Positions 16,604 to 45,643 of a stretch of DNA of 64,000 nt are shown piece after piece; position 1 is the stretch's first letter, and each line of letters begins with the position of its first letter. The translations under genes and the position numbers were made by a program. Origin of the DNA: a virus; the IMG/VR virus record IMGVR_UViG_3300031539_012188, positions 1 to 64,000 of that record; one strand, given 5' to 3'. Below the pieces are notes generated by a model that was not told the origin of the DNA, searched no databases, and worked only from the letters and a program-made list of their open reading frames with translations.

Positions 16604-18220
16604 TTACTCAGGAGCCTTGAACATTTTGTCAACGGTATAATGGGTATGCCAGTCGAGTACAATTATCTCACCATCTACTTCATCACCTCCTGAAGCTACC
16701 CTACGAAGTCTGGCTGACAAGTCATCGTGTGATACTATCACATCTCCTGCATCTGCATCATAGTCAATCGTGAACTCAAGCATATACGTAGCATATTGAG
16801 TCCCATCAATTACTGTTATTTCATCTGTCACGTCGTGAGATACAATTGGGACTATATCTGTTGTTCCTACCTGATTCCAGGAAAATTGGAACTTGAAAGT
16901 TTCATCCGCAGTTTCCGCTAATTCAAGAGCTACGAGAACATGAAAACTTATATCACTTGCTCCATCCCATCTACCAGGGACATTCTCATTGAAGAATAGT
17001 TCCTCGTTGTCATTGTTGTAGATTGGCATACTGTAACCATGAAATACGCCTATAATTGTTTGGGTTGGCTTTCCCTGTGCAGTGATTGTTGTATAATCCA
17101 AGTCCGCTCTTAGAGTCAAATCCCTCTTGGCTGTGCCGAGTAAGGTAACAACTCCTGTAAGAGATATGTCTAAATAATCCCCAGCCGTTCCAACTCCTAG
17201 AGTCCCATGAACTCTTACCAAGTTATTATCAAATTCTCCATAGATCAGAGGTGTCACAGAGTCCGAATTCTCGATGTAGAGTTTGTTGGCTCCTGTCTCA
17301 TTGTATCCAGCTTGATAGCCGAGGAAAACATTGGCATCTCCCGTCTGTAAAAGATAGCCCGCCTGATAACCGAGCAAAACACAATTGTCATATGTAGTAG
17401 CCGCACCCTTATATCCTGCTCGATAACCAATGACGACATTATTGTGAGAAGTTGCATTATAACTCATAGCTTCTCGGCCTATGGCGATGTTATAATTTCC
17501 AGTTGTTATGCTAATCAAGGCAAAAGAGCCAACAGCTACATTACTGTGTCCTGATGTGATAACCCTCATGCTATCGTAACCAATAGCAATATTATATTCG
17601 CCACTACCAGCCACCGACCTCATAGCCTCTTCGCCAATAGCTACATTGCCGTCACCACTGACAAAACTGAGCATAGCATCCGCGCCGATTGCGACGTTGA
17701 ATTCACCAGTATCTTGTTGCATCATAGCTCGATAGCCAATAGCAACATTCATATCACCCTGATTCGTCGTTCCCGCATCCTCAAGAGCTTGATAACCTAT
17801 GGCTACATTGTAACTTGCTGTAGCCAGACCCATCGAATATGTACCGATAGAAACATTCCGTTCCTCGTCGATACAGGTATAGCCACTTTGATAGCCAATA
17901 AAGACGTTTTCGACGCCTTCAGTGGAACTTGTTCCAGCCTCGAAGCCCAACAGTGTATTGCTGTCTCCTAGAGTCAATGCTGCGCCAGCATCAGCTCCTA
18001 AGAGTACGTTAGACCAGGTATCATCCAAATATAGTGCCGTCTTTCCACCGACATCTACTTGGAAATTATCGGGCTGAAAGTTGATGAACGTATCTGGATC
18101 ATCACAATGCTCGATATATTGTTCGAAGCAGGCAGTTGGAGTGCCAACTTCAGTGTATTCCCTGGTTTCCAGGGCACGGAGTCTTTGGTGTATGCCTCTT
18201 ATGGTTTCTTGTAATATCAC
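16604..18220 (-). CDS. tail fibre with YadA-head-like N-V-A-I-G repeats
   Basis: 538 aa, GTG start overlapping the upstream stop (GTGA). Residues about 80-330 hold about a dozen degenerate repeats built around N-V-A-I-G / N-I-A-I-G followed by A-M or A-L, as in the beta-roll heads of trimeric autotransporter adhesins, a fold also used in phage fibres. A C-terminal globular domain (about 390-520) follows. The protein probably forms a trimeric shaft and receptor-binding tip. It is the last virion gene before the lysis pair. Confidence 0.75.
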   Translation of the reverse strand: MILQETIRGIHQRLRALETREYTEVGTPTACFEQYIEHCDDPDTFINFQPDNFQVDVGGKTALYLDDTWSNVLLGADAGAALTLGDSNTLLGFEAGTSSTEGVENVFIGYQSGYTCIDEERNVSIGTYSMGLATASYNVAIGYQALEDAGTTNQGDMNVAIGYRAMMQQDTGEFNVAIGADAMLSFVSGDGNVAIGEEAMRSVAGSGEYNIAIGYDSMRVITSGHSNVAVGSFALISITTGNYNIAIGREAMSYNATSHNNVVIGYRAGYKGAATTYDNCVLLGYQAGYLLQTGDANVFLGYQAGYNETGANKLYIENSDSVTPLIYGEFDNNLVRVHGTLGVGTAGDYLDISLTGVVTLLGTAKRDLTLRADLDYTTITAQGKPTQTIIGVFHGYSMPIYNNDNEELFFNENVPGRWDGASDISFHVLVALELAETADETFKFQFSWNQVGTTDIVPIVSHDVTDEITVIDGTQYATYMLEFTIDYDADAGDVIVSHDDLSARLRRVASGGDEVDGEIIVLDWHTHYTVDKMFKAPE

Positions 18221-20970
18221 AGCAAATCCTCTGGAATGTATAAGAATGTCGGCCTTACTTCCTCGCCAGCATCTCCAAGTAAGATATGTGCTTCCACTAT
18301 CTTTATATTATAGTCAACTTCTCTATATCGTCCAGTGACCAGATCACCTACGTTCCAGTCTCTTCCATAGAGTGTTCCCACTGTGGGTATCGCCTGAAAT
18401 TCAAAGGTGAACATCTCCTTATTTTCCATAAGAAAGGCATCGCCCATAGCATTGAGTGCTGCTGTGTTGATATTCTGCGACCCCTCAAGGAAAGCCTCGA
18501 TTCGATTCCACGGCGAATCAAACTGGGCATCGTAAAGACTGAAACGCTCTACGATCTCCCTGGCTACTCCGACGCCGTCTCCTGCAACATAAGACATAGT
18601 AATTTCTGCGATTCTATCTGTTACGATGTGGGGATTGACCATATTTCCTCTCTGAAGAGAGAATATAGTCGGCGGATTTCCATCGACGTTTCCAACTCTA
18701 CGATCAAGGCCAACTCTGGGATAATGAACGTGAAAAGTAAGAGTATCTACTGTGCGGTCTACCTCGAAATCTGCGCCGAGTTCAGAAAGAATCTCCAACT
18801 CATCTGAGACATTTACATGGCGCAAAGCTCTGAGCACAGATGCACCTTGATTGGTATCGGCATCTACGACAAAGTTAGCAAATTGCCGTGCCACATCCAA
18901 AGCTGCTAAACCTAACTGATAACGTACCAATTCTCGCATTATATCAGTGAAGGAGTCAGTTCTGGTAAAGAAGGCACTTGCTGCATCTGGTCTAATGATT
19001 CTACGCTTGACGATTGATTTCAGGTCTGGACCTAAAGAGCGGAAGATTTCTTTATCAGCGTCATCGACGAAGAACTCATGTCTCCTGTGGAAGCCCTCGA
19101 AATCGGTGTACCACAGGCCGTCTGGATATTTTCTCCTGATTTGGATGAATCGATCTAACAAAAAATCATCGACGGCAGGATTGATTCCGAGAATCTCTAA
19201 ACGGAAATTGCCATAATTATGATGTCCTTGACCGTTGACGCTTTTAATGTATTCCAGTCTTTCGAAGCCGCCAGCATCATCGAATAGTGCCAATTGTGTA
19301 CCATCGTGATCGAAGAGAATAACTTGGTAACGTCCCATCAATTCTGGTGGTACGATGCAGGGCACAACTGGTGGCAAAGTAGTCGTCGTTGTCGTCGTAC
19401 TGGTTGTCGTCGTACTGGTTGTCGTCGTACTGGTTGTCGTCGTACTGGTTGTCGTCGTACTGGTAGTGGATGTTGTAGTTGTCGTCGTACTGGTAGTTGT
19501 TGTTGTTGTTGTTGTTGTAGTGCTGGTCGTCGTAGTAGTGCTGGTCGTCGTAGTAGTGCTGGTCGTCGTAGTAGTGCTGGTCGTCGTAGTAGTGCTGGTC
19601 GTCGTAGTAGTGCTGGTCGTCGTAGTAGTGCTGGTCGTCGTAGTAGTGCTGGTCGTCGTAGTGGTGCTGGTTGTCGTTGTCGTGGTCGTTGTAGCTTCGG
19701 GTTCGTACAGTATCGTAAGGTAGGGGACGCTGCCTACGTTCTCTTTGGCGTAGATGGAGATATACTCATACCCTGTCGGCTCCGTAGCGTCTTTATCATG
19801 GTCGCTTCGCAAAGAATAGTAAGTATCGCCTAGCGGGTCGGGCCAGGCGGTGCTTAGATTTCCGCTGGTGTAGTTTGTGTCTACGACTATGCCCGTAGTG
19901 TTGCGCCAGATATTGTCATCCAGTGTACCCGCTAGGCAGTTGTCATAGGCGTCCTCTCTATTACCCGCAACGATTGGGTCTTGAGCTGACCAGTCCTGCT
20001 TGACAATCTGTACATCGAATTCTGTACCACTTTGGTCTGTGCCTACAGTCATATTCAGATTAACTTGAGTAATTGTCTGCCCAGCACCAATGCCGCTAGT
20101 ATCGAACTTCAGGAAACTTCGCCAGATATAATAATCACCTCCGGCGAACAACTGACCACAGGTGAAGGTAGTACCAGTCATATTAGACGACTCAGAAGTG
20201 CTGCGGGCAGTATCATAATCGTTACTAAGTCCCCTAACGTGCCCATCCGCCGTGCTGCCCGTGAAGTCAGGGTCTATGGTTATCGGATAGACAGCGTGGG
20301 CCAATTCGGTGACGGGGATGCCAGTGTAGAGCACCCCATCTCGCCAGTACCTACGGCACGTCAGCGGTTCGTTGTTCGCGTCCCAGGCCACGGGCATAGG
20401 CGACCAGTGCTCGGAAATGGCGTATTCGCCCTCAACCCAGCCGTTGGGCAGAGAGACGCCGCCCACCACTGTCTCTAGAACGAGGAAGTCGCCGACTTGT
20501 GCCTGTGGGATGTCGGGTTTGATCTTCAGGGTCAGCAACTCTCGATAGCCCGTAGGGGTGATGCGCCGCTCCACGCGCCACTCGTCGCGTTCCGCAATCA
20601 GCGCGTCGTCCTCTCTTTGTCCCAGGGGCACCTCGCGGGTTGCCAGCAACTCCATCGTGCTGGGCCTGAACAGTCCGATGCGCTTGGTCCATTGGCTGTA
20701 GTCGCCCAGATGCACCACGCCTGTCTCAGTGATGACCACATTCAGTCCAGGGCAGTACCACAGGCCACGCCCTATATCAAACAAGGGCATGGTGTCTAGG
20801 GGCTGCCAAGTTCCCTGCTCATCCTGATAGTGTATAGGGCTACCCGTGAACAGCCCCAGAATCTTTCCATCGGGACGGCGCAGATGCAGAGAGCGACGCG
20901 CCCGCTTCACAACGGGCAACGCCGCCAGTTCAGGATTTGCTTCGAGGATTGCCCTAACCCAGTTAGCCAT
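18217..20970 (-). CDS. baseplate/tail protein: DNRLRE-like + Thr/Ser-rich tract + Gp37-like domain
   Basis: 917 aa. Residues about 230-420 resemble a DNRLRE-type beta-sandwich (Y-I-W-R-S-F-L-K-F-D-T-S-G-I), common in bacterial surface proteins. Residues about 427-531 are only Thr and Ser. From about 540, R-Y-Q-V-I-L-F-D-H-D-G and later parts look like the siphovirus ReqiPepy6 Gp37-like tail-associated domain that forms part of the tail tip. A tail-tip protein with an external adhesive domain on a mucin-like stalk is the best reading. It lies directly downstream of two methyltransferase and three glycosyltransferase genes. Confidence 0.7.
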   Translation of the reverse strand: MANWVRAILEANPELAALPVVKRARRSLHLRRPDGKILGLFTGSPIHYQDEQGTWQPLDTMPLFDIGRGLWYCPGLNVVITETGVVHLGDYSQWTKRIGLFRPSTMELLATREVPLGQREDDALIAERDEWRVERRITPTGYRELLTLKIKPDIPQAQVGDFLVLETVVGGVSLPNGWVEGEYAISEHWSPMPVAWDANNEPLTCRRYWRDGVLYTGIPVTELAHAVYPITIDPDFTGSTADGHVRGLSNDYDTARSTSESSNMTGTTFTCGQLFAGGDYYIWRSFLKFDTSGIGAGQTITQVNLNMTVGTDQSGTEFDVQIVKQDWSAQDPIVAGNREDAYDNCLAGTLDDNIWRNTTGIVVDTNYTSGNLSTAWPDPLGDTYYSLRSDHDKDATEPTGYEYISIYAKENVGSVPYLTILYEPEATTTTTTTTSTTTTTSTTTTTSTTTTTSTTTTTSTTTTTSTTTTTSTTTTTSTTTTTSTTTTTTTTTTSTTTTTTSTTSTTTTSTTTTSTTTTSTTTTSTTTTTTTLPPVVPCIVPPELMGRYQVILFDHDGTQLALFDDAGGFERLEYIKSVNGQGHHNYGNFRLEILGINPAVDDFLLDRFIQIRRKYPDGLWYTDFEGFHRRHEFFVDDADKEIFRSLGPDLKSIVKRRIIRPDAASAFFTRTDSFTDIMRELVRYQLGLAALDVARQFANFVVDADTNQGASVLRALRHVNVSDELEILSELGADFEVDRTVDTLTFHVHYPRVGLDRRVGNVDGNPPTIFSLQRGNMVNPHIVTDRIAEITMSYVAGDGVGVAREIVERFSLYDAQFDSPWNRIEAFLEGSQNINTAALNAMGDAFLMENKEMFTFEFQAIPTVGTLYGRDWNVGDLVTGRYREVDYNIKIVEAHILLGDAGEEVRPTFLYIPEDLL
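19377..19693 (-). repeat. Thr/Ser codon tandem repeat (mucin-like tract)
   Basis: About 105 consecutive Thr/Ser codons, mostly five or four Thr then one Ser. At DNA level it is made of short direct repeats: an 18-base unit is repeated about eight times between 19525 and 19660, and another block repeats at 19395-19465. Such arrays expand and contract by slippage, so stalk length may vary between isolates. Low complexity also makes the assembly here less certain. Confidence 0.9.
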
Positions 20971-21394
20971 CAGTTACGTCCATATCATCAGGCATCAATG
21001 TAACCCATAAATAGTCTGGAGACGACTTCTGAGAAATGATTGTCCACGGCTCGATGCCATAATTGAAATAGGCCAATCGATGCGTAAAATAGTCAAAAGT
21101 TCCGTCTGCGAATGCCCTTACGTGCGTGGGATCGACGAAACAGGTAAAGGATGGATACTTGGGCACTTCGATTTCCATCAATCCATCTGACTTGAGAACC
21201 CGCCTACAGTCGTTCATCAATGGAATGAGATTGCTGATATGTTCCAAGATGTGATGCGCCCTGATCTCATCAATCGAATCGTCGAGGAACGGAAGTGCCC
21301 CATCTTCCAAATCAACCAGTATATGCCCCCCGTGCTTGTCGAGTCCAACATATCCCTGTGGACAATTCAGACCACCACCAAGATCGATTTTCAT
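20963..21394 (-). CDS. SAM-dependent methyltransferase
   Basis: 143 aa from the ATG at 21394, which overlaps the upstream stop (ATGA). M-K-I-D-L-G-G-G at the N-terminus is the SAM-binding glycine loop; A-H-H-I-L-E-H-I follows the acidic strand, and L-K-S-D-G-L-M-E-I-E-V matches the later class I core. This small form is often found in glycan gene clusters, methylating sugars or carrying out related chemistry. Its neighbours are another methyltransferase and three glycosyltransferases, so the substrate is probably a sugar. Confidence 0.75.
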   Translation of the reverse strand: MKIDLGGGLNCPQGYVGLDKHGGHILVDLEDGALPFLDDSIDEIRAHHILEHISNLIPLMNDCRRVLKSDGLMEIEVPKYPSFTCFVDPTHVRAFADGTFDYFTHRLAYFNYGIEPWTIISQKSSPDYLWVTLMPDDMDVTDG

Positions 21395-21948
21395 TTCTTG
21401 ATCCATTTCCAGGCCAGCAAATTACTGCCCCCCCGATTCTTTGGTCCCAGTGCCGCGACCTCATAGCGTAACCGTGCATAGTCCTCATAGTATAAATAAC
21501 TACGGTGGCGATTAGCGTCATTACCGTAGGCTATTCCTCCTGGCGCAATTCCCCACGGTGAACCCATGACTACAAGTTGCGTTGTGATGCTCTCCAATCC
21601 CTGAACAGTATCAGGAAACTCGGAGCAATCTATGTGCTCTGGACCGTGCCACCAGAAAATGTAGTCATACTTCGCATAAGGCAATTCAATCTCGGCAACC
21701 TTACGTACATCGCCACAAATTACGTGCTCGAAATTTCCCCACCATCGCGTTTTTTTCAAACCCTCAACTGCCTCTGGCCATATCTCCAAGACGGTGATTT
21801 TATGCCCAATTTTATACAATTCAGTGCTATAATGACAACGCTGCGGGCAAGCACCCACATATAAAAGAGTCCCAGCATTTTTCGGATCGAAGAGTTCTGG
21901 TATCAATGCCATCAATTGTCTATATCGTCTCAGAAGTACTAGGGACAT
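21391..21948 (-). CDS. methyltransferase-like protein of glycan cluster
   Basis: 185 aa, start in a TAATG overlap with the upstream glycosyltransferase. L-L-Y-V-G-A-C at about 28-34, V-L-E-I-W-P at about 54, V-I-C-G-D-V-R and Y-D-Y-I-F-W-W-H-G-P-E-H match the order of class I methyltransferase motifs, with a shortened glycine loop. It is likely to act on the same glycan as its neighbours. Confidence 0.65.
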   Translation of the reverse strand: MSLVLLRRYRQLMALIPELFDPKNAGTLLYVGACPQRCHYSTELYKIGHKITVLEIWPEAVEGLKKTRWWGNFEHVICGDVRKVAEIELPYAKYDYIFWWHGPEHIDCSEFPDTVQGLESITTQLVVMGSPWGIAPGGIAYGNDANRHRSYLYYEDYARLRYEVAALGPKNRGGSNLLAWKWIKK

Positions 21949-22658
21949 TATTCACGCCACCTTTCAGGAGGCGCAAGGGTCTTGAGATCGACTGGCTCAA
22001 TCACTATCTTGGAGTAGTTTCGCTCGGTGAGGATCGAAGCAACTCCAATGTGCTGGCAGTAAGTTTCCCGAAGGTAGCCGATCTCATATCCCATATTTCG
22101 TGTAGCGAGGCAACGTATCATCGCTGGAGTAGTTCCAAAATCATAACGACGCTTTGGCAACGTTCCTTCTTCGGCCAGTTTTCTACGAACGAAGGCAAAC
22201 GTCCCGCCTACGGCCATACAATATATGACCTCCTTATCCTTGGGATGTTGGAGTTCTGGAAGGGCTACACGCCTGGCTCCTGGATGATTGAGTACCAAGA
22301 GACCCAACCGTGGTCGTGCTTGCATCGCTCGCACCCCGCGTGTCAACCAGTCGGGTTCCACGTCTGGACAGAGTATATCATCATCTGTCACTACGAACGG
22401 GTCAGAGAAACTAATCCAAGTCGCAGCAATTATATTGGGTAACAACCCATGTCTCTCACCACGCAATAACAAACTCTCGATTCGTCCCACACGCCATTTC
22501 TCTAAGAGCCACTCGACGTTGCCTGACTTCGAGGCATCATCTATTACATGCAATTTGTACGGAGATCTGGTACGCTCCCAGATATGTTGAAGAGTCTGTT
22601 TCAGATAGTCAAGTCTATTGTGAGTGGTAACTATGATGTCAGTTATACTTTGCTCCAT
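21948..22658 (-). CDS. family 2 glycosyltransferase (GT-A)
   Basis: 236 aa. D-I-I-V-T-T-H-N-R at the start, V-I-D-D-A-S at about 38-43 and the D-D-D metal motif (F-V-V-T-D-D-D) at about 90 define a GT2 fold that transfers a sugar from a nucleotide-sugar donor. No membrane segment is present, so it is soluble. Overlaps both neighbours by a few bases. Confidence 0.8.
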   Translation of the reverse strand: MEQSITDIIVTTHNRLDYLKQTLQHIWERTRSPYKLHVIDDASKSGNVEWLLEKWRVGRIESLLLRGERHGLLPNIIAATWISFSDPFVVTDDDILCPDVEPDWLTRGVRAMQARPRLGLLVLNHPGARRVALPELQHPKDKEVIYCMAVGGTFAFVRRKLAEEGTLPKRRYDFGTTPAMIRCLATRNMGYEIGYLRETYCQHIGVASILTERNYSKIVIEPVDLKTLAPPERWRE

Positions 22659-23329
22659 TTTGCCTCGAATCGTTCTTTATTGCGTAGATAGATTTCTTTC
22701 TGATTGGGAAGTTTGCCCCAGGTGGCATTGCCAACGTGGGTGCAATGTCCGACCTTCACCATCTCGCGTCCCGTCTGCAAAATGCGTAGTACGAAATCAC
22801 GATCTTCAAACATACCGCGTTCGTAGCCTTCATCTAAGTATCCCACCTCATCTACGATCTCTCGTCTGGTCATCCAAAGAGCACCGAAGAAGTGCCCCCA
22901 AGGAGCTACCATGCGCCCAACTTTGCACTCAGGATCGTGGGCAAGCAGGTGGGAGCAGATAACTCCAGTAGTATCTTCCCACGCCTCTCTTGCCATCGCT
23001 AACCAGTTGTCTATCAATTCTATGTCATCATTCATCACCACGAGCCACTCACCTCGTGCCAGTTTGAGTCCTTGGTTCACCGCTGGAGCGAAACCCAGAT
23101 TGCTCTGATTGCGTACATAAATATCGGCCTCGTCCCTCATATATTCACCACCAATGGGAGAGCCATTGTCTACCAAAATCAGTTCATGGTCTTTAGTGTA
23201 GCAACGGATTGATTCGATGCACCGTTTCAGGAATGTCAACAACTCCGCATCCTTATCGGGCAGGATGTAACACGGGATGATGATGCTAGTCAGTTCGCCT
23301 CTATCGCTGGCCACAGGTGTTTCTCCCAT
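22643..23329 (-). CDS. family 2 glycosyltransferase (rhamnosyltransferase-like)
   Basis: 228 aa. S-I-I-I-P-C-Y, L-V-D-N-G-S at about 51-56, N-L-G-F-A-P-A-V-N-Q-G and V-M-N-D-D-I (D-x-D variant) are typical of GT2 enzymes related to rhamnosyltransferases, and E-D-R-D-F near 175 is the usual catalytic-base region. Start could also be an in-frame GTG a few codons later. The gene overlaps the GT4 gene upstream by about 40 bases. Confidence 0.8.
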   Translation of the reverse strand: MGETPVASDRGELTSIIIPCYILPDKDAELLTFLKRCIESIRCYTKDHELILVDNGSPIGGEYMRDEADIYVRNQSNLGFAPAVNQGLKLARGEWLVVMNDDIELIDNWLAMAREAWEDTTGVICSHLLAHDPECKVGRMVAPWGHFFGALWMTRREIVDEVGYLDEGYERGMFEDRDFVLRILQTGREMVKVGHCTHVGNATWGKLPNQKEIYLRNKERFEAKWSKV

Positions 23330-24525
23330 ACTGCCTTCAGGCTCCTTTCTTTGCGCATTCGAGCATGGTTCAATAGCACGGGGTCATTACCCATCATATA
23401 GGCGATTCCACCAGCTACGTGGCGCATATAGGCGTGTCTATCACCATAGTTAGTCGTCGTATCTCCAGGCATTCCAGTCGCCACATCTACATTGGAGGAG
23501 AACTTGTAGAGCAGTGCTCGATTCTGCCACAGTCGAAACATCGGTAGGTCGAAGTTTAGCACCAAGCCACACCGTGCCCAAGCTGCCTCTGGCACGACGA
23601 GTGGATCGCTCTCCGAACGCGACGGATGCACGAGGATGTCAGCGAAGTCAAATAGGTCTACGACCGCCTCGTGTGGAATGTGATATGCTGCATCTCCTCC
23701 CAAGTCGGAGGTGAACACTATTGGCACGCCAGCCGCACTTGCTTGATTTTTCATCTCCTCACGATACACAGCCTTGTCGCCCGCCGTCGAGTGAAAGTCA
23801 ATAATAACTACCCGTGCATCCCAGCCCATATTCCGCAATCCAACGAATGCTTCGATGATGATGTGCGGTTGCTTGCCACGGTCGAGTCGGGAGGGATAGA
23901 CGGCAATGATGTCTGCATCCCAAAGGCCACCTAACTCGATGGCTTTCAGTGCTACTTGGTGATAATTCTCAGTGAAGTCGATAGGATTTGGGATAATTAC
24001 TGTCTCGTACATCTCGTAGCCAAAGGCTGCACGCTTGCGCATAGCCTCTTCTTCGTGAAACACTACTAAGCGCGAATTAGCAAACTTGCCCCGCAACTCT
24101 CCTTGAAATCTACCTGTCTGGCCAGAGATGTCTCCTGAACTTCCAGAGTGTACCCAGTGGAGCCAGCGAAGATCAGGCCGCTCTTTGGCGATGCGACGTG
24201 CTGCGACGTGAAACTTCCATAAGTTAGATTGACATAACAAGTCGTGAGTGAGAACCACATCTATTCCAACTAGGGCCGAACGCAACTGCTCCGTCAATGA
24301 ATCGATTTCGCTAGCAGATTTACTGGTTATATTGACCACATTACTACCAGTCTCTCCAGGATCGAGAACTTGCATTTCATATGGGGCTTTGAACTCTGCG
24401 CGTGTCAATACCTTAAATTCATATCCTCCCGTATGCAACATTTTCGCTTGATTTGCTACAACTGCACATAGGCTGTACGCTGGATCATGGCTTACGAAAT
24501 CAGTCAGAATTGCTACTCGCCTCAC
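23290..24525 (-). CDS. GT4-type glycosyltransferase (GT-B)
   Basis: 411 aa; GTG at 24525 chosen because AGGAGGG lies seven bases upstream, while the TTG at 24531 is too close to it. Two Rossmann halves are visible: an N-terminal V-A-I-L-T-D-F and a C-terminal donor-binding half with Y-P-S-R-L-D-R-G-K-Q (about 208-217) and H-P-S-R-S-E-S-D-P-L-V-V-P-E-A (about 313-327), the E-x7-E region of GT4. It is the first gene of the first glycan block, immediately after the lysin. Confidence 0.8.
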   Translation of the reverse strand: MRRVAILTDFVSHDPAYSLCAVVANQAKMLHTGGYEFKVLTRAEFKAPYEMQVLDPGETGSNVVNITSKSASEIDSLTEQLRSALVGIDVVLTHDLLCQSNLWKFHVAARRIAKERPDLRWLHWVHSGSSGDISGQTGRFQGELRGKFANSRLVVFHEEEAMRKRAAFGYEMYETVIIPNPIDFTENYHQVALKAIELGGLWDADIIAVYPSRLDRGKQPHIIIEAFVGLRNMGWDARVVIIDFHSTAGDKAVYREEMKNQASAAGVPIVFTSDLGGDAAYHIPHEAVVDLFDFADILVHPSRSESDPLVVPEAAWARCGLVLNFDLPMFRLWQNRALLYKFSSNVDVATGMPGDTTTNYGDRHAYMRHVAGGIAYMMGNDPVLLNHARMRKERSLKAVWEKHLWPAIEAN

Positions 24526-24537
24526 TATCAAACCCTC

Positions 24538-27084: not shown

Positions 27085-27095
27085 ATATTACTCTC

Positions 27096-31881: not shown

Positions 31882-31888
31882 TCTGTTT

Positions 31889-32647: not shown

Positions 32648-32664
32648 ATTCTTCCTCCTTATTT

Positions 32665-32693: not shown

Positions 32694-32699
32694 CTAAAC

Positions 32700-34208: not shown

Positions 34209-34217
34209 TTTAACCTC

Positions 34218-35866: not shown

Positions 35867-36046
35867 CTATTGTGTCTCAACAACTTGAAAGTCGAGCATC
35901 CGCTCGAAAAAGTGTACGTCTTTTATCGGAACCCAAGACTGCCGTTGACTGCGACCATCAAATCTATAGCGGTTTCCTAAAGGAGTCCTAAAAGTCCTCG
36001 CTCCCATATTATCACCTGTGTATTTGATTAGTGCTTTCGTTGCCAT
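35867..36046 (-). CDS. possible internal-start product: paralogue 1 of the small domain
   Basis: Within the glycosyltransferase frame, ATG at 36046 is preceded by AAGGATG at a good distance. Translation from it would give a 59-aa protein (M-A-T-K-A-L-I-K-Y-T-G-D-N-M-G) colinear with the free-standing paralogues at 35409-35866. So this domain may be made both as a fusion tail and as a separate protein; alternatively the fusion arose by loss of a stop codon. Confidence 0.4.
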   Translation of the reverse strand: MATKALIKYTGDNMGARTFRTPLGNRYRFDGRSQRQSWVPIKDVHFFERMLDFQVVETQ

Positions 36047-38449: not shown

Positions 38450-38461
38450 TTTTCCCCATTA

Positions 38462-39709
38462 TTAGATAGGATAGTGTTCGTCCGCTCTCCACGTTTTTGC
38501 TCTCATAGTTGAACCAGGCTTCCAATGCCCTCCGAATCTCCGTCTCGTACCTGCGATCAAATGCTTTACATAACTCTGGACAGGGAAATCCTTCAATTGA
38601 TAGCCTCTTTCCAACGCAGCCCGCATATTTGCGGTGCATGGCGCTCCGCTGTTTTCCATCGGTGTCAATTGAAGAAATTTTTCCCTATCAATCATTGCTG
38701 CGTGTGGGTGAACATAATCCATTCCTCCTTTACCCCCTGTAGGCACGCCTGAAAATTTATCTACCTTTCTGAGCCAACCAATTGCATAGAGATTTGGATT
38801 CTTCGCAAACTCTGCCAACATCATTTCTAAGAGATCTGAGCATTTTAATGAGGCGTCTGAATCGTAAAGAAATACGAATGGAGTCTTAGCTAAATTGATA
38901 CCCTGATTCATTGCAGGGCCATGTCCAATATTCTGCTCATTCAAGATAGTTGTTATATTCTCGTGCATCTCTCCGACCACTTTGATATACTCTGTGGACC
39001 CATCTTTAGATCCATTATCTATCATTATAATAGATATTTTTGGATAATACAGCATCATCGTTCGTCTCGCCTCGTTCGTTAATTCTTTCGTGCAGTAATT
39101 TACTAATACTACTGTTACTTGTGGATAAACCTTTTCTACATCTGGTGATACCACAACCTTGATGGGTAAGCCTTTTCCACCTCCTATTTTATCCACCGTA
39201 ATCATCGTTCGATTCACCCAGTAATGACTACATCCTGCATTAAATAAAGCCTTGATAAAATGATAATCTCCATATCTTGGCTGTCCAAACTCATGGATAT
39301 AGCGTCTCCAAATTGCATACTTTACCACGAAGCAACAAGAGCCGATTTCTCCCAATACGGGTGGTTTCCCCCAAGTTCTCTTAGAAGGTAACGTTTCGCT
39401 AAACTGTTTACGGTAAACTTTGAAAAGAATGATGTCAACAGGATGTTGTGCGACGACATTCTTTAAATGCTTGATGAAACTTCGGTCGCTAATATAGTCA
39501 TCATCATCTAAGATAAGAACATACTTTCCTTTCACCCTGTGCTTATTTTTACTCAGACTTTTATTGGCTTCGTGCAGTCCTTTATGCTCATTATCAGTAA
39601 TTATGATATGTTCATAGTCTGGATCAATTTGAGTAGCAAGCGATTTTCTATTTCTTGCGAGAAGTCTAGTTCTTCCACAAGACCGAGTTACCACAGATAA
39701 GAAAGTCAC
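38462..39709 (-). CDS. double family 2 glycosyltransferase
   Basis: 415 aa, GTG start overlapping the upstream stop. The first half has V-V-T-R-S-C-G-R-T and L-I-L-D-D-D-D-Y; the second (from about 195) has V-T-V-V-L-V-N-Y, I-D-N-G-S-K-D-G-S, N-I-G-H-G-P-A-M-N-Q-G and L-Y-D-S-D-A. Two complete GT-A domains in one soluble chain. Part of the second glycan block. Confidence 0.78.
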   Translation of the reverse strand: MTFLSVVTRSCGRTRLLARNRKSLATQIDPDYEHIIITDNEHKGLHEANKSLSKNKHRVKGKYVLILDDDDYISDRSFIKHLKNVVAQHPVDIILFKVYRKQFSETLPSKRTWGKPPVLGEIGSCCFVVKYAIWRRYIHEFGQPRYGDYHFIKALFNAGCSHYWVNRTMITVDKIGGGKGLPIKVVVSPDVEKVYPQVTVVLVNYCTKELTNEARRTMMLYYPKISIIMIDNGSKDGSTEYIKVVGEMHENITTILNEQNIGHGPAMNQGINLAKTPFVFLYDSDASLKCSDLLEMMLAEFAKNPNLYAIGWLRKVDKFSGVPTGGKGGMDYVHPHAAMIDREKFLQLTPMENSGAPCTANMRAALERGYQLKDFPVQSYVKHLIAGTRRRFGGHWKPGSTMRAKTWRADEHYPI

Positions 39710-40194
39710 TTTATAGCCTCACAGAGTATGTCGCCATCTGGCATATGTCCTGACCTAGTTGGATAAACAGTACATCTCCTTATCTTGAAACCAGAATCTT
39801 TAACAATCTGGTGCATCCTATCCGCCGTGAAAAAGTTCCTATTGATATGCCCTTTTCCTCTTGAGACCGATCCCAAAAGCCAGGTCAAACCTTCGCCCCA
39901 GCGCAATTTGTAATCGCCTGCCAACCATCTCCTTAGATAAGCCTCAATATTTGGGCAACGAATCATCAATACTCCACCAAACCTTAGAACTCTCCTCCAT
40001 TCTCTCAGCATCTTCTGGAACTCAGGAAGGGTTACATGCTCAACCATATGAGACGTATAAATCTTATCTACTGTATCATTAGCATAAGGAAGTTCAGAAG
40101 CGTCTACATTCAGATCCGCCTCCTTCGCGTATTTGTCGATGTTTTTAAATCCGGCCATCCGCGAAGTTCCACTACCTAGATTGAGTTGCAACAT
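39706..40194 (-). CDS. SAM-dependent methyltransferase
   Basis: 162 aa. L-N-L-G-S-G-T at residues 4-10, I-D-K-Y, V-D-A-S-E-L-P-Y and S-H-M-V-E-H-V followed by L-R-F-G-G-V-L-M-I-R-C-P give a complete class I methyltransferase of the kind seen in polysaccharide clusters. Similar in plan to the one at 20963. Probably methylates a sugar hydroxyl. Confidence 0.75.
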   Translation of the reverse strand: MLQLNLGSGTSRMAGFKNIDKYAKEADLNVDASELPYANDTVDKIYTSHMVEHVTLPEFQKMLREWRRVLRFGGVLMIRCPNIEAYLRRWLAGDYKLRWGEGLTWLLGSVSRGKGHINRNFFTADRMHQIVKDSGFKIRRCTVYPTRSGHMPDGDILCEAIK

Positions 40195-41104
40195 GACACT
40201 CTTTTATCATCTTTTTTGTGTGTTGAGTGAATGTATAGCGTGCTAAAACTTCTTCCTGTCCACTATTAGCAATTTCTGTACGCTCTTTTGGGTGTTTCAA
40301 ATAATAATCAAGCATAGCAAAGAGTTCCTGATCTGATTTGTACCATACCAGATGCTTGTGATTGGTGAATAAATCCTCGATTCCTTCAGAATAAGTCTGA
40401 ATAAGGAAGCAACGAGAACCTAAAACATTGGGCAAGCGATTTGAGAAGTATCCTTCTAAATGTCGCCATTCGTCTCCGATCAGACTGAGCATAATCTTCG
40501 TTTGTCCACACAATTTAGCAAAGTCCTCACCGAAAGCGGGGCTGAGAGACTTAAATTGTGTTCCTGCCCAATTCGGGCCAGCCACATAGAGATTGAATCT
40601 CTTGTGCAACTCATTCAAAGTTCTACGTCTGGAGGGATCGTTATTCCAACCAGGAAAAACGACATCGTAAATCTGCTCCGATGGACAATACTTGAATATA
40701 CTTGGCTCGGTAGGACAGGGAAGGTATGCACAGTTGAAAACACACTTTTCAATATTCTGTTTTACGTGTGTTTTATTTGAGATGTAAACATAATCTGCTG
40801 CAACTCTAGCAAGTCGCAAATGATACTCAGAGTAAGGTCGGTCGCCATAGAAAGCAGAGACACCACAATTTAATTCATCTTTGACTCTTCGTAACATTCG
40901 AGCATCGACGCTTCTCCCAGGCTTTACACTACCGCCAAGATGAATATGTGTCGGCGCAAAATCGAGGATGATGCTTTCGAGACGTTCCTTTTTACTCCGA
41001 ATGTCGAAGTGTTGAACTACACCAAGTTTTCGGAAAGCATTGAGCCAATAAAAGTTAGAGTTGGTCTTCTCAAATAAATCTACATAAAAGATTCGTTCAG
41101 CCAC
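40172..41104 (-). CDS. CgeB-like glycosyltransferase
   Basis: 310 aa, GTG start overlapping the upstream stop. A GT-B type protein with Y-D-V-V-F-P-G-W-N-N-D and R-R-R-T-L-N-E-L in the middle and R-L-P-N-V-L-G-S-R-C-F-L-I near the donor site, as in CgeB-like (spore-coat maturation) glycosyltransferases. Paralogous in plan to the next upstream gene. Soluble. Confidence 0.7.
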   Translation of the reverse strand: MAERIFYVDLFEKTNSNFYWLNAFRKLGVVQHFDIRSKKERLESIILDFAPTHIHLGGSVKPGRSVDARMLRRVKDELNCGVSAFYGDRPYSEYHLRLARVAADYVYISNKTHVKQNIEKCVFNCAYLPCPTEPSIFKYCPSEQIYDVVFPGWNNDPSRRRTLNELHKRFNLYVAGPNWAGTQFKSLSPAFGEDFAKLCGQTKIMLSLIGDEWRHLEGYFSNRLPNVLGSRCFLIQTYSEGIEDLFTNHKHLVWYKSDQELFAMLDYYLKHPKERTEIANSGQEEVLARYTFTQHTKKMIKECHVATQSR

Positions 41105-42053
41105 GGAGTTCCTCCACGAATAAGGCTGCCCTTTTCTCCCAGGTGCAGGCGAAGGCGGTTTTTTGACCTAACTTGATTAAACGTTCTCTTTCTTGTGGAT
41201 TATTGATATAGTGATCTAATAGTTGTTTCAAATGCTGTGCAGATTCATACTGTGGCACAGCGCCTTTGAAGATGGGATCGATGCCTTTGTTGGCATCACT
41301 GATGGCAAGACTACCAGATGCAAGAATGTCAAAGAGTTTTACGGAAACAAAACCCTCATTGACCATCTCTGTCCTGTGATCTTGGAGGCAAATCTTCGAG
41401 GAGGCATAGAGTTTATTCAACTCCTCATACGGCCAATAGCGACCACCATACCATGACTTGGGGACTTGATTGTTCTCCCAATTGCTGCCCCAGATACCGA
41501 TTCTATAAGGAAGGTTTCCAAGGGATTTAATATGGTTAATGATCGCTCGACCATCCATCCCGTGTGGGCCTCTATTATTTCCTACGAAGACGACATCATA
41601 TTTATTAGGCATACTTATAGGTCTCTTAGAAGTCGCACCTAACATTACTCGCGCTTCTGTGTAACCCATCTCCCACAATTTCTTGATGAAGAATGTAGAA
41701 CAACAATAGATCCTATCGTATCCACGCAAATTTGTTGTAGAGACCTTTTCAGGGTGTGAATAAATCCACGCGATTTTGTAGATACTATTTGGAAACTGCT
41801 CTATTCTCTTTTTATACACGTACTCTATTTCACCACCAGAGAGGTGAATCAACACATCTGGTGGATGCACATCTGGTCTACTAATTGAAATACGATAACC
41901 TAGTTTCTTCAAAGCCTTGGACAATTCCTCCTTTACCCAATTATCTCCCCACAAACTTCGGGCGTATTTTGAAGGACTAATATCTGAGGGAGCGATGATA
42001 TGCACCGTTAAAGTTTTCTTTTGCTGTAAGCGTGATATCTTCTCACTTTTCAT
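41097..42053 (-). CDS. CgeB-like glycosyltransferase
   Basis: 318 aa. V-V-F-V-G-N-N-R-G, R-I-G-I-W-G-S-N-W, then S-V-K-L-F-D-I-L-A-S-G-S-L-A-I-S (about 243-258) mark the C-terminal donor half of a CgeB-like glycosyltransferase. Overlaps genes on both sides, so it belongs to one co-translated chain of glycan enzymes. Confidence 0.75.
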   Translation of the reverse strand: MKSEKISRLQQKKTLTVHIIAPSDISPSKYARSLWGDNWVKEELSKALKKLGYRISISRPDVHPPDVLIHLSGGEIEYVYKKRIEQFPNSIYKIAWIYSHPEKVSTTNLRGYDRIYCCSTFFIKKLWEMGYTEARVMLGATSKRPISMPNKYDVVFVGNNRGPHGMDGRAIINHIKSLGNLPYRIGIWGSNWENNQVPKSWYGGRYWPYEELNKLYASSKICLQDHRTEMVNEGFVSVKLFDILASGSLAISDANKGIDPIFKGAVPQYESAQHLKQLLDHYINNPQERERLIKLGQKTAFACTWEKRAALFVEELRG

Positions 42054-42621
42054 AGAGAATCACTGCATTGGGATTGAACTTCACAGCGACTAAACCAACT
42101 TTTCTTGGCAACCTACGATATACGATATATCGAACATTCTCCTTCCTATCAAAGCAACTTAATATCTTTTTCACACCCGCAATCGTATAACTATGCTTTT
42201 CAAATGGATTACCATAAGATTCGCCTTGCTTCTCAATACCAATTGGAAACGAGAGAATCAACCACTTACTTGTTAGCCTCTTCAGCTTCTTAATAGTTTT
42301 TTGTATCTCCGCAAAATTGTTCAGGTGCTCTAAGCCATGAATCCAACAAACTATATCGAAACTTTCTGGTAGAAAGTATCTCTGTACCTCTCGTACATCT
42401 CCCTGCACCACAGGGTAGCCGCGTTCTCCTAATTCTCTTACATTATCTTCAAAGATTTCCAGTATTGTGTAGTCCTCAACACCAAATCGCTGTAGACCCT
42501 CAAATAAACCTGCGCCATATTCTAGATTATATCTAGCTCCAATGTCGAGAGCGGACTTCCCAGAGATTCCACATTCTTGTAAAAATTGAACTGTACGTTT
42601 CTCGAAGTCCCTACTCTCCAA
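42043..42621 (-). CDS. SAM-dependent methyltransferase
   Basis: 192 aa, TTG start overlapping the upstream stop. A-L-D-I-G-A-R at about 25, I-L-E-I-F-E-D, V-V-Q-G-D-V-R-E and F-D-I-V-C-W-I-H-G-L-E-H-L are the ordered class I motifs. Related in layout to the protein at 21391 (D-V-R, then W-x-H-G-x-E-H). Likely sugar methylation. Confidence 0.75.
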   Translation of the reverse strand: MESRDFEKRTVQFLQECGISGKSALDIGARYNLEYGAGLFEGLQRFGVEDYTILEIFEDNVRELGERGYPVVQGDVREVQRYFLPESFDIVCWIHGLEHLNNFAEIQKTIKKLKRLTSKWLILSFPIGIEKQGESYGNPFEKHSYTIAGVKKILSCFDRKENVRYIVYRRLPRKVGLVAVKFNPNAVILYEK

Positions 42622-43198
42622 TAAGGTTCTCCTTCTTCAGATCGTTGAAGTCCTCTCGCAGCAAGCCGTAAATGTGGACATCTATATATTGACCATTCTT
42701 AAATTTCTGTTCTCTTAAAACGCCCTCTTCCTGAAAACCCATCTTTTGATAAACCGCCCTAGCACCCTCATTTAGAGCCATTGTATACAGCCCGATTTTG
42801 TTAAGGTTAAGGTGATTGAAAGCATAATCAAGGAGTAAGAATACAGCCTCCGTGCCATAGCCCCAACTGCGATATTTTACTTCACCAATGAGAAACCAAC
42901 TCAATTCTGCTGTGTGACTTCGCCAATCGATGTGATTCAGTCCTATCGTGCCGATATCTCCGTCTTTTTGAACTCCAAAAGCTGGATCGGCTTCGTTTAC
43001 AAGTTGAATCATGTAATATTTAGCATTTAGATTATGCGTAATTTTCTCAACCCACTCAAAATGTGCATCCAGAGAAAGTGGCTCCTCCTCGAAGAAGAAG
43101 GGCTTTACTTGCGGATTATTCCGCCATTTCACGACATCCCAGCCATCGTCTACAGAGTTATCGTAAGCCCTAAGCAGCACTTTCTTACCAGCTAACAT
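42611..43198 (-). CDS. GNAT-family N-acetyltransferase
   Basis: 195 aa from the ATG at 43198 (GGAAGGG just upstream); a TTG at 43210 is possible. W-R-N-N-P-Q-V-K, I-G-L-N-H-I-D-W, then Y-R-S-W-G-Y-G-T-E-A-V (acetyl-CoA loop) and K-I-G-L-Y-T-M-A-L-N-E-G-A-R-A-V-Y-Q-K-M-G-F show a RimJ/RimL-like GNAT. Next to a sugar aminotransferase such enzymes acetylate the new amino group of a nucleotide sugar. Confidence 0.85.
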   Translation of the reverse strand: MLAGKKVLLRAYDNSVDDGWDVVKWRNNPQVKPFFFEEEPLSLDAHFEWVEKITHNLNAKYYMIQLVNEADPAFGVQKDGDIGTIGLNHIDWRSHTAELSWFLIGEVKYRSWGYGTEAVFLLLDYAFNHLNLNKIGLYTMALNEGARAVYQKMGFQEEGVLREQKFKNGQYIDVHIYGLLREDFNDLKKENLIGE

Positions 43199-44354
43199 TT
43201 GCCCTTCCAAACTCTAGGATAGAGTATATAATGTAAGAGATTTCCTCGTCTGTAAGACTAGGATACATAGGCAAGGTCAACAACTTCGGCCACACACGTT
43301 CTGCGACAGGCAAAACCACAGAACCCAACTTTCGACGGTAGTAAGGTTGCAGATGAATCGGATAATAATGCACCCCTGTGGCAATTCCCTTTTCCTTAAG
43401 GAAGGCATTCAAAGCATCCCTAGAGGAAGTCTTTATCACGTAATTATGCCAAGAGCTTTTTGCGTAAGATTTTTCCACAGGGGTTTCTATCCAAGGAGCC
43501 TTTTCTTGAAAAGCTGCAGTGTAGGCGTTTGCGATATCACGACGCCTGGCATTGCCTTTATCCAATTTTTCTAGTTGACATAAACCAATGACTGCTGCGA
43601 TGTCATTCATGTGATATTTATAACCCAATTCGTTCACTTCATAGTACCAAGAATACTTTTTATATTCAGCCTCTTCTGTGCGATCCCAAGTGCTCTTATC
43701 TATGCCGCACCAACGAAGACGCCGAAGCCTCTCAACCAATTCAAGGTGATTGGTAGTAATCATTCCTCCATCTCCGCAGGGGAGATTTTTAACGGCGTGG
43801 AAACTGAAACAAGTAGCCCAGCTACGCTCTAAACCGCCGATTTTCTGACCCTTGTACTCACTGCCACAGGCGTGTGCAGCGTCTTCTATAACGCGAAGAC
43901 CATATTTGTCTGCGATATTCCAGATAGCATCCATCTGACAAGCGTGGCCTCCATAATGCACGGGGATTATAGCCTTTATTCTAGGATGACCTAATTTAGC
44001 TGCTATTCTTAATCGATGAGCGAGATCTTTAATTTGGATATTCAGGGTATCTGTTTCGATGTCCACGAATAGGGGAAATGCTCCGCAATAAGTAGGAGCA
44101 TGAGCTGTGGAAACGAAAGTCATCGTAGGAATCATCACCACATCCCACTCATCGAGATCCAATGCTATGCAACACAAGTGAAGAGCTGCCGTAGCACTAT
44201 TAGTGGCAATGGCATACTTTGCTCCAACGTATTCAGCGAACTTTTCTTCAAATTCCGCTGTCTTCGGTCCTAAACCTATCCAACCAGTAGCAAAGATTTC
44301 TCGTAGAGCATCGAGTTCTTCTTCACCAAGAGAAGGCTTGAAAACTTGGATCAT
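43185..44354 (-). CDS. DegT/DnrJ/EryC1-type PLP sugar aminotransferase
   Basis: 389 aa, intact. T-N-S-A-T-A-A-L-H-L at 51-60, V-I-E-D-A-A-H-A at about 155-162 (Asp binds the PLP ring nitrogen) and F-S-F-H-A-V-K-N with catalytic Lys189 are diagnostic. These enzymes aminate keto-deoxy nucleotide sugars using glutamate. With the adjacent GNAT it would make an N-acetylated amino-deoxy sugar. No dehydratase is present here, so the keto sugar must come from the host or elsewhere in the genome. Confidence 0.9.
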   Translation of the reverse strand: MIQVFKPSLGEEELDALREIFATGWIGLGPKTAEFEEKFAEYVGAKYAIATNSATAALHLCCIALDLDEWDVVMIPTMTFVSTAHAPTYCGAFPLFVDIETDTLNIQIKDLAHRLRIAAKLGHPRIKAIIPVHYGGHACQMDAIWNIADKYGLRVIEDAAHACGSEYKGQKIGGLERSWATCFSFHAVKNLPCGDGGMITTNHLELVERLRRLRWCGIDKSTWDRTEEAEYKKYSWYYEVNELGYKYHMNDIAAVIGLCQLEKLDKGNARRRDIANAYTAAFQEKAPWIETPVEKSYAKSSWHNYVIKTSSRDALNAFLKEKGIATGVHYYPIHLQPYYRRKLGSVVLPVAERVWPKLLTLPMYPSLTDEEISYIIYSILEFGRANVSW

Positions 44355-44917
44355 TCAGCGACTCCATCTGATTTTTCGATGAGATGTTTATAGAGCCGCG
44401 TAGTCCATTCTCGAAATTGGTCGACAGTCATAGAATTTTTTGCTACATTACAAATTCCACAGCAAGGCACGACATTTTCGATGCTGTAACCTTTGGAACT
44501 ATCTACGCGGTCTAGGCCATTATAATTATAAGAACCATAACAACTCCTCATAAATATCTTTTGTTGTGGTTTAATCCCACAATAATAGCAACTTTGTTCA
44601 AAAAGGGTGCGTACTTGATCTACTGTCAAAGACCATTCGAAATTACGTTTATCCGCACGAAATTTCATCTTTCCAACCAGAGCATTAAAAGATGCTTCCC
44701 CAATGGATAGCCTGTGCGCCTCGCGCTGTCTTTCTTTCTGAAAACAGCCACAACTTTTTGTTCTACCTCTACGTAAATTCACTCCAGCGATGACTTTTTC
44801 ATTGCCACAGTCGCATCTGCAAAGCCATTCAGCACAGTTAAATTTATTATTTCCACTCCTTTCAATAATGACCAATCGACCATAGCGATTTCCCATCTCA
44901 TCGATAAGTTTGCCCAT
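44351..44917 (-). CDS. HNH homing endonuclease with N-terminal zinc domain
   Basis: 188 aa. G-N-R-Y-G-R-L-V-I-I-E-R, C-R-C-D-C-G-N and R-T-K-S-C-G-C form a DNA-binding zinc module common in phage homing enzymes. The C-terminal C-Y-Y-C-G ... N-G-L-D-R-V-D-S-S-K-G-Y then N-V-V-P-C-C-G-I-C-N-V-A-K-N is an HNH variant. It overlaps the aminotransferase by ATGA, inserted within the glycan block. Confidence 0.85.
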   Translation of the reverse strand: MGKLIDEMGNRYGRLVIIERSGNNKFNCAEWLCRCDCGNEKVIAGVNLRRGRTKSCGCFQKERQREAHRLSIGEASFNALVGKMKFRADKRNFEWSLTVDQVRTLFEQSCYYCGIKPQQKIFMRSCYGSYNYNGLDRVDSSKGYSIENVVPCCGICNVAKNSMTVDQFREWTTRLYKHLIEKSDGVAE

Positions 44918-44919
44918 TC

Positions 44920-45627
44920 TTATCCTTTTGTTTTCAGTTGATCGAATTCTGTACCTTGCCTAGACTTGCCGATATGATTGAATGCACGGACAATTCCGTT
45001 TTCGAGGGTAATGATCTTCGGCCCCTTCTCAAGCGCATCTTTCACCCTGTGTGCGAAGGCACTCTCTGTCTCACCAAGAGACTTATTCATTGGATACTCC
45101 CCATAAGCGCGATGAAATTTTTTGTGCTTCAAATGAGGACGATTGCTATAAACATTGAGGCCGCGACTGCTCTTTAGGATTTCCAGATATTGCAAGACAC
45201 CCAGAGGAGTACTAACTTCCTCGATTGCCAGATTTAGTCTATGTCCAGCCAAACCGTCATATCGCACCAGTCCAATATTCGCTGTGGAATTGAGAAGGGC
45301 AACACCTTTATTTATGTCAAGCTGCTGTAAGGCGACATAATCATCCTCGCATAGTAAAATATACTTCTCGCCGATCATTTGCATACATCTCGTGACATTT
45401 GCTCCCCATCCAAGCCTCTTCGTAACAGACACTCTAAAATTTATTTTAGGAAAATCTCGCTGGATCTCTAGCACATAATTGCCCTTACTGCCATCATCGG
45501 CTAAGTACCATACAAGTTTCCCATCGTACTGTAAGTATTTAGTTAATGCCACTATGACGCGACGAATCTCACCTGGTCGTTCGTAGGTGATTATTTGCAC
45601 CGCCACATCAGGCCAAGTGAAACTCAT
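44920..45627 (-). CDS. family 2-like glycosyltransferase
   Basis: 235 aa; ATG at 45627 preferred, since AAGAAGGA lies six bases before it. V-Q-I-I-T-Y-E-R-P-G-E, Y-L-A-D-D-G-S-K-G and L-L-C-E-D-D-Y follow a GT2 plan with a conserved D-D pair at the metal site. It is the first gene of the second glycan block, directly behind the capsid gene hairpin. Confidence 0.7.
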   Translation of the reverse strand: MSFTWPDVAVQIITYERPGEIRRVIVALTKYLQYDGKLVWYLADDGSKGNYVLEIQRDFPKINFRVSVTKRLGWGANVTRCMQMIGEKYILLCEDDYVALQQLDINKGVALLNSTANIGLVRYDGLAGHRLNLAIEEVSTPLGVLQYLEILKSSRGLNVYSNRPHLKHKKFHRAYGEYPMNKSLGETESAFAHRVKDALEKGPKIITLENGIVRAFNHIGKSRQGTEFDQLKTKG

Positions 45628-45643
45628 AAACATTCCTTCTTTG

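Follow-up and report, generated by a model that had tools for sequence, protein, structure and literature searches.

A conserved multi-domain glycosyltransferase locus beside the capsid gene of uncultured siphoviruses, a candidate system for virion glycosylation

Glycosylation of phage virions has been documented in a few mycobacteriophages, where it has been read as a shield against animal antibodies. In the parts of the published accounts available to us, it is reported for Corndog, Che8 and Myrna (PMC12363180), the glycosyltransferases (GTs) of mycobacteriophages are said to glycosylate capsid and tail-tube proteins (PMC12619734, PMC12363180), and the glycans are placed at the C-termini of capsid and tail tube (PMC12619734). 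The nearest precedent for the locus described here is found in the cluster O mycobacteriophages (Corndog, Firecracker, Catdawg), for which the sections at hand describe an O-methyltransferase gene and three GT-type genes between the portal and capsid protease genes (PMC4351075); the annotation of the cluster O 11.5-kb stretches agrees with this order. The subject of the present analysis is a stretch of 64,000 nucleotides (hereafter the window), positions 1 to 64,000 of the 68,926-base IMG/VR virus record IMGVR_UViG_3300031539_012188, in which two blocks of GT and methyltransferase genes lie among head and tail genes. With a probability of roughly 0.7, block 2 (35867-45633, minus strand) would be a virion-glycosylation locus in the capsid region of a large uncultured siphovirus lineage, with the head or neck as its most likely target; block 1 (20963-24531, minus strand) appears to have a history of its own.

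As in cluster O, GT and methyltransferase genes stand inside the string of virion genes here, but they do so between capsid and connector rather than between portal and protease, and cluster O has four enzymes and, in the annotated 11.5-kb stretches, no sugar-nucleotide gene. The likeness does not extend to homologous enzymes in the same gene position: when ten Firecracker proteins were compared with nine models from the window, only gp35 matched (E 1e-6, to the model of the core enzyme of block 2), at the general level of GT2, and the Firecracker portal, capsid and major tail proteins gave no match to these models. The GTs of Che8 and Myrna are phage-encoded, as here, but in Maravista, described as a close relative of Che8, the available part of the report places them near the 3' end of the genome and away from the capsid gene (PMC11256854), unlike those of the window. 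The chlorovirus PBCV-1, which according to the sections at hand encodes enzymes of glycan synthesis and has a glycosylated major capsid protein (PMC4691112), is a giant virus of eukaryotes and offers an analogy only. No description of this locus was recognised in the accessible parts of the literature on virion glycosylation with GTs and on Chloroflexota phages with GTs. The capsid protein had no match at E 0.01 in 50,697 phage records, and among the 30 matches listed of 103 obtained with the core GT in phage records, none covered more than 80% of its length and all were below 60% identity.

Between about 54.9 kb and 16.6 kb, most genes of the window lie on the minus strand and form a head-tail string, in which PHROGs names were obtained for the small and large terminase subunits, the portal (with a LAGLIDADG match), Dit and the tape measure. 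The 482-aa product of the gene directly upstream of block 2 (45687..47135, minus strand) has no Pfam or PHROG match; its AlphaFold model, built from 51 sequences (that of the window plus 50 of the 62 full-length frames) with a pLDDT (predicted local distance difference test) of 82.2, matched HK97-fold capsids at a best E of 1.7e-9, and the best 50 of its 280 fold matches at E <=0.001 were capsid or prohead entries, with query TM-scores of 0.29-0.46. On the strength of this modelled fold, it is taken here as the predicted major capsid protein. A gap of 53 bp separates its gene from block 2, which lies between it and the gene of a conserved 396-aa protein (34218..35408, minus strand), a head-tail connector by position only, in one closely packed co-directional gene string. 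Beyond it lies a conserved 502-aa protein (32700-34208) with YCF48/BNR-type repeats (PF14870 E 3.4e-9), which may be part of the tail tube or neck and expose a beta-propeller on the surface.

Reading away from the capsid gene, all on the minus strand, block 2 opens with a GT2 glycosyltransferase of 237 aa (44920..45633; PF00535 above the cut-off), whose homologues in two related records introduced below are 77% (G004) and 81% (G002) identical. There follow a probable HNH-type mobile endonuclease of 188 aa (44351..44917), with a weak Pfam HNH_5 match at E 0.77 only and relatives at other positions in G002, G003 and G004; a DegT/PseC-like nucleotide-sugar aminotransferase of 389 aa (43185..44354; PF01041 E 7.7e-110); a PseH-like GNAT acetyltransferase of 199 aa (42611..43210; PF13302 E 2.3e-21); a methyltransferase of 192 aa (42043..42621; PF08241, 23.6 bits with a cut-off of 21.2); two GT-B type glycosyltransferases of 318 aa (41097..42053; PF13524 E 1.6e-19) and 310 aa (40172..41104; PF13524 E 3.7e-22); a methyltransferase of 162 aa (39706..40194; PF08241 E 4e-9); and a double GT2 glycosyltransferase of 415 aa (38462..39709; PF00535 E 4.2e-25, two stretches), 75% identical in G004 and without a relative among the phage records. 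The block ends with the core enzyme, GTx3, of 860 aa (35867..38449), in which Pfam domains of types GT4, GT2 and GT2 are followed by a small C-terminal domain. Both blocks together hold 8 GT genes with 11 GT domains, four methyltransferases, one DegT and one GNAT, and within them adjoining genes overlap by 1-40 bp or are at most 12 bp apart. The original prediction, made from the letters alone, had counted about nine GT genes, some with two or three domains; the multi-domain enzymes are there and the count has to be lowered. Its four methyltransferases, DegT and GNAT in two blocks were recovered, one methyltransferase by alignment and the others by domain search, and the gene layout agrees with its picture of enzyme blocks that share overlaps with co-directional head and tail genes.

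This layout recurs among relatives. Viral contigs scanned with a four-member capsid alignment yielded 66 loci, and 50 records were searched for GT2, Thr runs, Gp37, Tet_JBP and C5 methylase, the other 16 loci being L143, a second locus in a record already included, and 15 whose contigs, at 4.1-12.4 kb, were the shortest. As the records were fetched by their capsid protein, the presence of GTs in them is unselected. A GT2 match was obtained in 43 of the 50; in 40 of the 50, two GT2 matches fall within one long frame of 529-1,087 aa, which in all 40 is on the strand of the capsid gene. This long GT lies downstream of the capsid gene in linear order in 37 records, at a median distance of 6.8 kb (range 944 bases to 23.5 kb), and in 3 only if the record is circular. 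In nine of the ten records without it, the sequence that follows the capsid gene is shorter than 9 kb. Where both the capsid gene and a homologue of the 396-aa protein are found, the long GT stands between them in 19 of 20 loci (15 of 16 after collapsing matching coordinates). The close relatives of the window are G001 (82 kb), G002 (capsid 99% identical), G004 (capsid 93%) and the fragments G003 and G005-G008, with G001 being 100% identical over the genes compared and 95-97% in the tail-tip end after the tract described below; G009 (capsid 53%) and G010 (capsid 38%) are distant relatives. The identity of the long GT falls from 80-100% in the close set to 44% in G009 and 37% in G010, and the order capsid, GT island, long GT, 396-aa protein, 502-aa protein is found in G001, G002, G004, G009 and G010. 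Since the same layout recurs in dozens of records, that of block 2 is not a product of chance; judged from these comparisons, block 2 is old and belongs, as a conserved element, to the capsid region in a large group of uncultured phages, which lends virion glycosylation extra weight.

The small domain at the end of the core GT provides a further link to the capsid region. Its family comprises the final ~55 residues of the 860-aa GT and two separate open reading frames (ORFs) beside GTx3, both on the minus strand, which encode proteins of 77 aa with an MGCGC start (35633..35866) and of 74 aa with an MGCRC start (35409..35633). Among 26 long GT frames, a number that includes near-duplicates, the small domain ends 19, is the next ORF in 3 more (weakly, at E 4e-4 to 4e-5) and was not detected by profile in 4. 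In many fused copies a Cys-rich motif, often with Met, precedes the small domain and resembles by eye the starts of the separate proteins, as expected from gene fusion. From its position we infer that the small-domain protein belongs to the head region; its model has a pLDDT of 76.5 and consists of strands and one helix. Across 23 long GTs, the window included, the GTx3 residues E206/E214, D386/D388, D640/D642 and E719-D720-x-D722 are at least 93% conserved, and these we take to be catalytic-type motifs, the glutamates E206/E214 in the GT4 domain and D386/D388, D640/D642 (DxD) and E719-D720-x-D722 in the GT2 domains. The long GTs of L139, L151, L186 and L189 have no recognised small domain and carry other C-terminal extensions, some of which look by eye like helix-hairpin-helix ends. 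In G048 (L181, 11407-12315), an ORF with a weak small-domain match (E 8e-4) comes directly after the capsid gene.

Between the capsid gene and the core GT, the gene content differs from relative to relative. G004 has a capsid protein 93% identical to that of the window, yet 6 of the 10 block-2 genes (two methyltransferases, the two PF13524 GTs, GNAT and DegT) are without a counterpart there and other ORFs take their place, while three GT genes (first GT2, double GT2 and long GT) persist. In G002, identity is 99% for the capsid but 63% for the methyltransferase at 42043, 68% for the PseH-like protein and 76% for one PF13524 GT. The distant islands differ again, with what is presumably an epimerase-like protein in G009 and, in G010, two proteins that we take to be dehydratase/reductase-like, one formyltransferase-like and one PIG-L-like, all named by eye. 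A Pfam search of 106 plus-strand ORFs (at least 120 aa) from 19 islands, which left aside six ORF-less loci, the near-duplicate L132, L181 (which has no GT), two minus-strand ORFs and islands with incomplete ends, gave, among the 25 of 41 families listed and in overlapping sets, Epimerase in 16, GDP_Man_Dehyd in 14, RmlD in 14 and Polysacc_synt_2 in 12 ORFs, together with GT2 in 11, GHMP kinase N in 5, Methyltransf_11 in 4, and sulfotransferase, CTP_transf_like and DegT in 2 each. Read from these genomes, the genes between capsid and core GT, nucleotide-sugar enzymes included, are exchanged between close relatives. G004 also has a third run of ten glycan-type ORFs (mostly so named by eye) at 42721-51542 (L099), downstream of its tail genes, in which two ORFs have GT2 matches and one is a second DegT, 30% identical.

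Taken together, virion glycosylation is favoured because it best explains the position of the enzymes, their solubility, the fusion of the core GT and the exchange of cassettes. In the mechanism that we propose, activated sugars would be made or recruited by soluble enzymes, the pair of PseC-like and PseH-like proteins perhaps giving an N-acetylated 4-amino-4,6-dideoxy sugar in the window; the GTs would build a short glycan stepwise in the cytosol, with a head or neck protein as acceptor, the small domain at its C-terminus would bring the core GT to the particle, and the methyltransferases would cap the glycan. The exchangeable central genes would then switch the particle from one surface type to another, in the way that an O-antigen locus acts on a cell. 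The original prediction had gone further towards a tail target, proposing a virion-directed system that builds a methylated, N-acetylated amino-sugar glycan on the tail, perhaps also on the capsid; a virion-directed system remains the best reading and gains weight from the conservation of block 2 in the capsid region, while the tail tract loses its central place, and amino-sugar chemistry is plausible, with DegT and GNAT below the curated PseC and PseH cut-offs.

Several observations weigh against this interpretation. Gene position reveals a neighbourhood, not a target, and glycan, acceptor and enzyme activity are all predicted from genes; the small domain and the 396-aa protein are assigned to the head module by position only, and the small-domain model found no fold match in the PDB at E 0.001. 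Several of the 50 records are near-duplicates (e.g., G014/G015 and G017/G018/G022), so that the independent cases number fewer than 40. The core GT is not always needed, since G048, with 16.8 kb downstream of its capsid gene and homologues of the capsid, 396-aa and 502-aa proteins all visible, does without it and has no GT2 match anywhere in the record. Nor is a rich island always needed, as six loci (L135, L136, L138, L140, L143 and L163, several of them near-duplicates) have no island ORF of at least 120 aa between capsid and long GT. The DegT and GNAT pair is best matched by the PseC and PseH models of the Pse pathway among NCBIfam models, but with 367.4 bits for TIGR03588 (PseC; cut-off 423.5) and 85.0 bits for TIGR03585 (PseH; cut-off 93.1), the best solved relative of DegT is ArnB (1mdo), and no PseB partner or other Pse step was found among the ten window proteins scanned with NCBIfam, so that the amino-sugar part of the pathway is at most what is present. 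Finally, 3 of the 106 island ORFs are N6_N4 DNA methylases, which have a DNA-side function.

These methylases lead to one of the two rival explanations for block 2, namely that its GTs and methyltransferases decorate modified bases of the genome before packaging. Phage GTs can decorate DNA, according to the part of the source at hand (PMC12619734), and the window encodes a C5 cytosine DNA methylase (57943-59124; PF00145 E 3.3e-73); but this methylase is found in 8 of the 50 records (many of them fragments) against 40 of 50 for the core GT, Tet_JBP was found in 0 of 50, a weak result for want of a positive control, and many copies of the core GT end in a domain that is encoded beside capsid genes as well. 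We regard a role in DNA hypermodification as very improbable. The original prediction had argued against it from late co-expression, an argument that is weak alone because polymer-level DNA modification can likewise be late; the rarity of the C5 methylase and the weak Tet_JBP result tend the same way. Modification of the host surface is a somewhat stronger rival, although still an unlikely one. In that case the enzymes would act on the surface of the infected cell (its wall, S-layer or capsule), e.g., to block superinfection or to keep progeny off debris, and the core GT does match phrog_22739 and phrog_841, 'GtrB-like O-antigen conversion', and, always below cut-off, NCBIfam models that include teichuronic-acid and exopolysaccharide GTs. 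O-antigen conversion systems, however, use membrane proteins, a flippase and membrane-anchored GTs, and such components did not appear in the hydropathy scan, where the GTs of the window had no membrane-type hydrophobic 19-mer (highest mean Kyte-Doolittle (KD) value 1.45) and 99 of the 106 island ORFs had none at KD 1.8 (7 have any, one several). No flippase, polymerase or oligosaccharyltransferase appeared among the 25 of 41 island families listed, and throughout the group the locus stays next to the capsid gene, unlike a movable moron gene.

Block 1 and the tail gene behind it call for a separate assessment. From its upstream end, on the minus strand, the block consists of a GT4-type glycosyltransferase of 413 aa (23290..24531; PF00534 E 7e-8), which among eight close records has matches in G001 and G002 only, two GT2 glycosyltransferases of 228 aa (22643..23329; PF00535 E 2.8e-18) and 236 aa (21948..22658; PF00535 E 5e-9), a methyltransferase-like protein of 185 aa (21391..21948) without a Pfam match, so called because it is 33% identical over 97 residues to the copy in G001 of the methyltransferase at 42043-42621, and a small methyltransferase of 147 aa (20963..21406; PF08241 E 5.9e-7). 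With an 8-bp overlap there follows a minor tail protein of 917 aa (18217..20970, minus strand; phrog_538 minor tail protein), composed of an N-terminal module, a Thr/Ser tract and a Sipho_Gp37 domain (residues 635-893; PF14594 E 2.7e-19). The tract, residues 427-531 (19378..19692, minus strand), is indeed the run of about 105 consecutive Thr/Ser directly after block 1 that had been predicted, with 89 Thr and 16 Ser. Its length is uncertain, since the sister contigs G001, G002, G005 and G006 begin or end inside it; that G001 both begins and ends there suggests a complete genome cut at the repeat.

The distribution of the tract does not follow that of the long GT. The original prediction had placed it at the centre of the system, as a mucin-like O-glycan acceptor, and a dense Thr/Ser tract in a virion protein is present, but it does not accompany the GT system throughout: in most relatives the long GT is present and the tail gene has no Thr run of at least six residues, the shortest that the pattern detects, and among the 23 records with a Gp37 match such a run occurs in that gene only in G001. 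By coordinates, the pattern also matched outside Gp37 frames in G020, G022, G028, G032 and G049, and the backward control pattern matched in 10 of 50 records. With the tract rare and the long GT in 40 of 50 records, the tract was rejected as the core of the system. A single origin of both blocks was rejected as well, as G004 keeps the flanks of block 2 and has no block 1. In the window, G001 and G002, block 1, the N-terminal tail module and the tract are all present (in G002 the tract starts at the contig end and Gp37 lies beyond it), whereas G004 and G008 have neither block 1 nor tract and carry two other ORFs in the place of block 1; their Gp37 domains are 84% and 94% identical and are preceded by RITQ-type repeats and a proline run. 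G007 has a tail protein like theirs on a contig that starts inside the first of the replacing ORFs, and G005 and G006 start inside the tract, with block 1 beyond their readable part. The joint absence of block 1 and tract from G004 and G008 indicates separate histories for the two blocks, and in this small sample of genomes tract and block 1 appear to be exchanged together, as a single tail cassette separate from block 2.

Whether the tract is glycosylated at all is a question on which we are evenly divided, as it could equally be a flexible, slippage-made linker of variable length that joins the N-terminal module to the Gp37 domain. Tandem repeats of 18 bp and 15 bp make up most of the tract, that of G001 includes about 35 pure ACA codons, and the equivalent joint in G004, G007 and G008 is the proline run; on the other side, the mixed Thr codons of the main repeat go beyond a simple triplet run, and the GTs of block 1 co-occur with the tract in 3 of 3 readable records and are missing together with it from the two others, few as these close relatives are. 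The search for related clusters beside Thr-rich genes, as proposed with the original prediction, gave no evident link: in viral contigs, among the matches listed, GT genes lay within 5 kb in 4 of 86 loci with Thr runs and in 0 of 16 control loci with Pro runs (Fisher p = 1; usable loci 86 of 120 and 16 of 119, respectively). This test is weak both ways, as the home-made GT models matched at most 16 ORFs in the whole set and few control loci were usable. Block 1 may glycosylate its tail-tip module or the Thr/Ser linker.

Clues to the host come from metagenome-assembled genomes (MAGs). In a species-genome collection the capsid pattern gave 3 matches, in one Altiarchaeales MAG and in MAGs named Anaerolineae and Ardenticatenales. 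When the class of the Anaerolineae MAG was sampled, capsid matches were obtained in 7 of 396 genomes, two of them the seeds; for the phylum of the Altiarchaeales MAG the figure was 1 of 29, the seed itself. By profile models and by eye, two contigs from the Anaerolineae class look phage-like; two contigs of this sample, with capsids 22-25% identical, still have GT genes closely downstream, one of them, G169, with an 871-aa long GT that carries the small domain. The host of the lineage is probably Anaerolineae, an assignment that is weak because it rests on binning. Among named genomes the nearest capsid relative is L192 (55% identical), whose 4-kb contig was placed in a Candidatus Altiarchaeales bin; misbinning is possible, since 0 of 28 other genomes of that phylum match.

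A more specific version of virion glycosylation, in which an Anaerolineae phage lineage carries a particle serotype locus made up of a conserved tri-domain GT, held at the particle by the C-terminal domain that it shares with neighbouring head-region proteins, and an exchangeable sugar cassette next to the capsid gene, is put forward tentatively and would, in our estimate, sooner prove wrong than right. If true, it would bring glycan surface variation to a bacterial virus, with a capsid-docking GT as the core enzyme, one that may build a capsid glycan in the cytosol. Were a glycan locus conserved at the capsid gene of phages that infect environmental bacteria, in settings free of antibodies, particle glycans would have a wider role, which could lie in adsorption, protection or evasion of host factors. 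The fusion of the core GT to a domain shared with neighbours in the capsid region would mark glycosylated phages from sequence alone, and G048, the record without a core GT, offers a natural knock-out for a comparison of particles.

Some minor observations concern other parts of these genomes. The portal gene of the window (49225-51699) has a large insert with a LAGLIDADG match (phrog_11023, residues 227-362), and the portals of G002, G003 and G004 align without it; the insert is apparently an intein present only in some strains, as far as these alignments go. The protein encoded at 24538-26097 begins with an M23 peptidase part followed by a long second part, and the G004 protein in its place has a different N-terminal part and a C-terminal part that looks similar by eye, perhaps a case of a swapped tail lysin. 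The record G022 (L140, L143), a 143-kb IMG/VR record with two capsid genes about 75 kb apart, each with a long GT and a Gp37 match, apparently unites two related phage genomes. At 6650-8905, the window encodes a DNA polymerase A (PF00476 E 1.1e-84) with an N-terminal domain of the uracil-DNA glycosylase superfamily (PF03167 E 1.3e-21).

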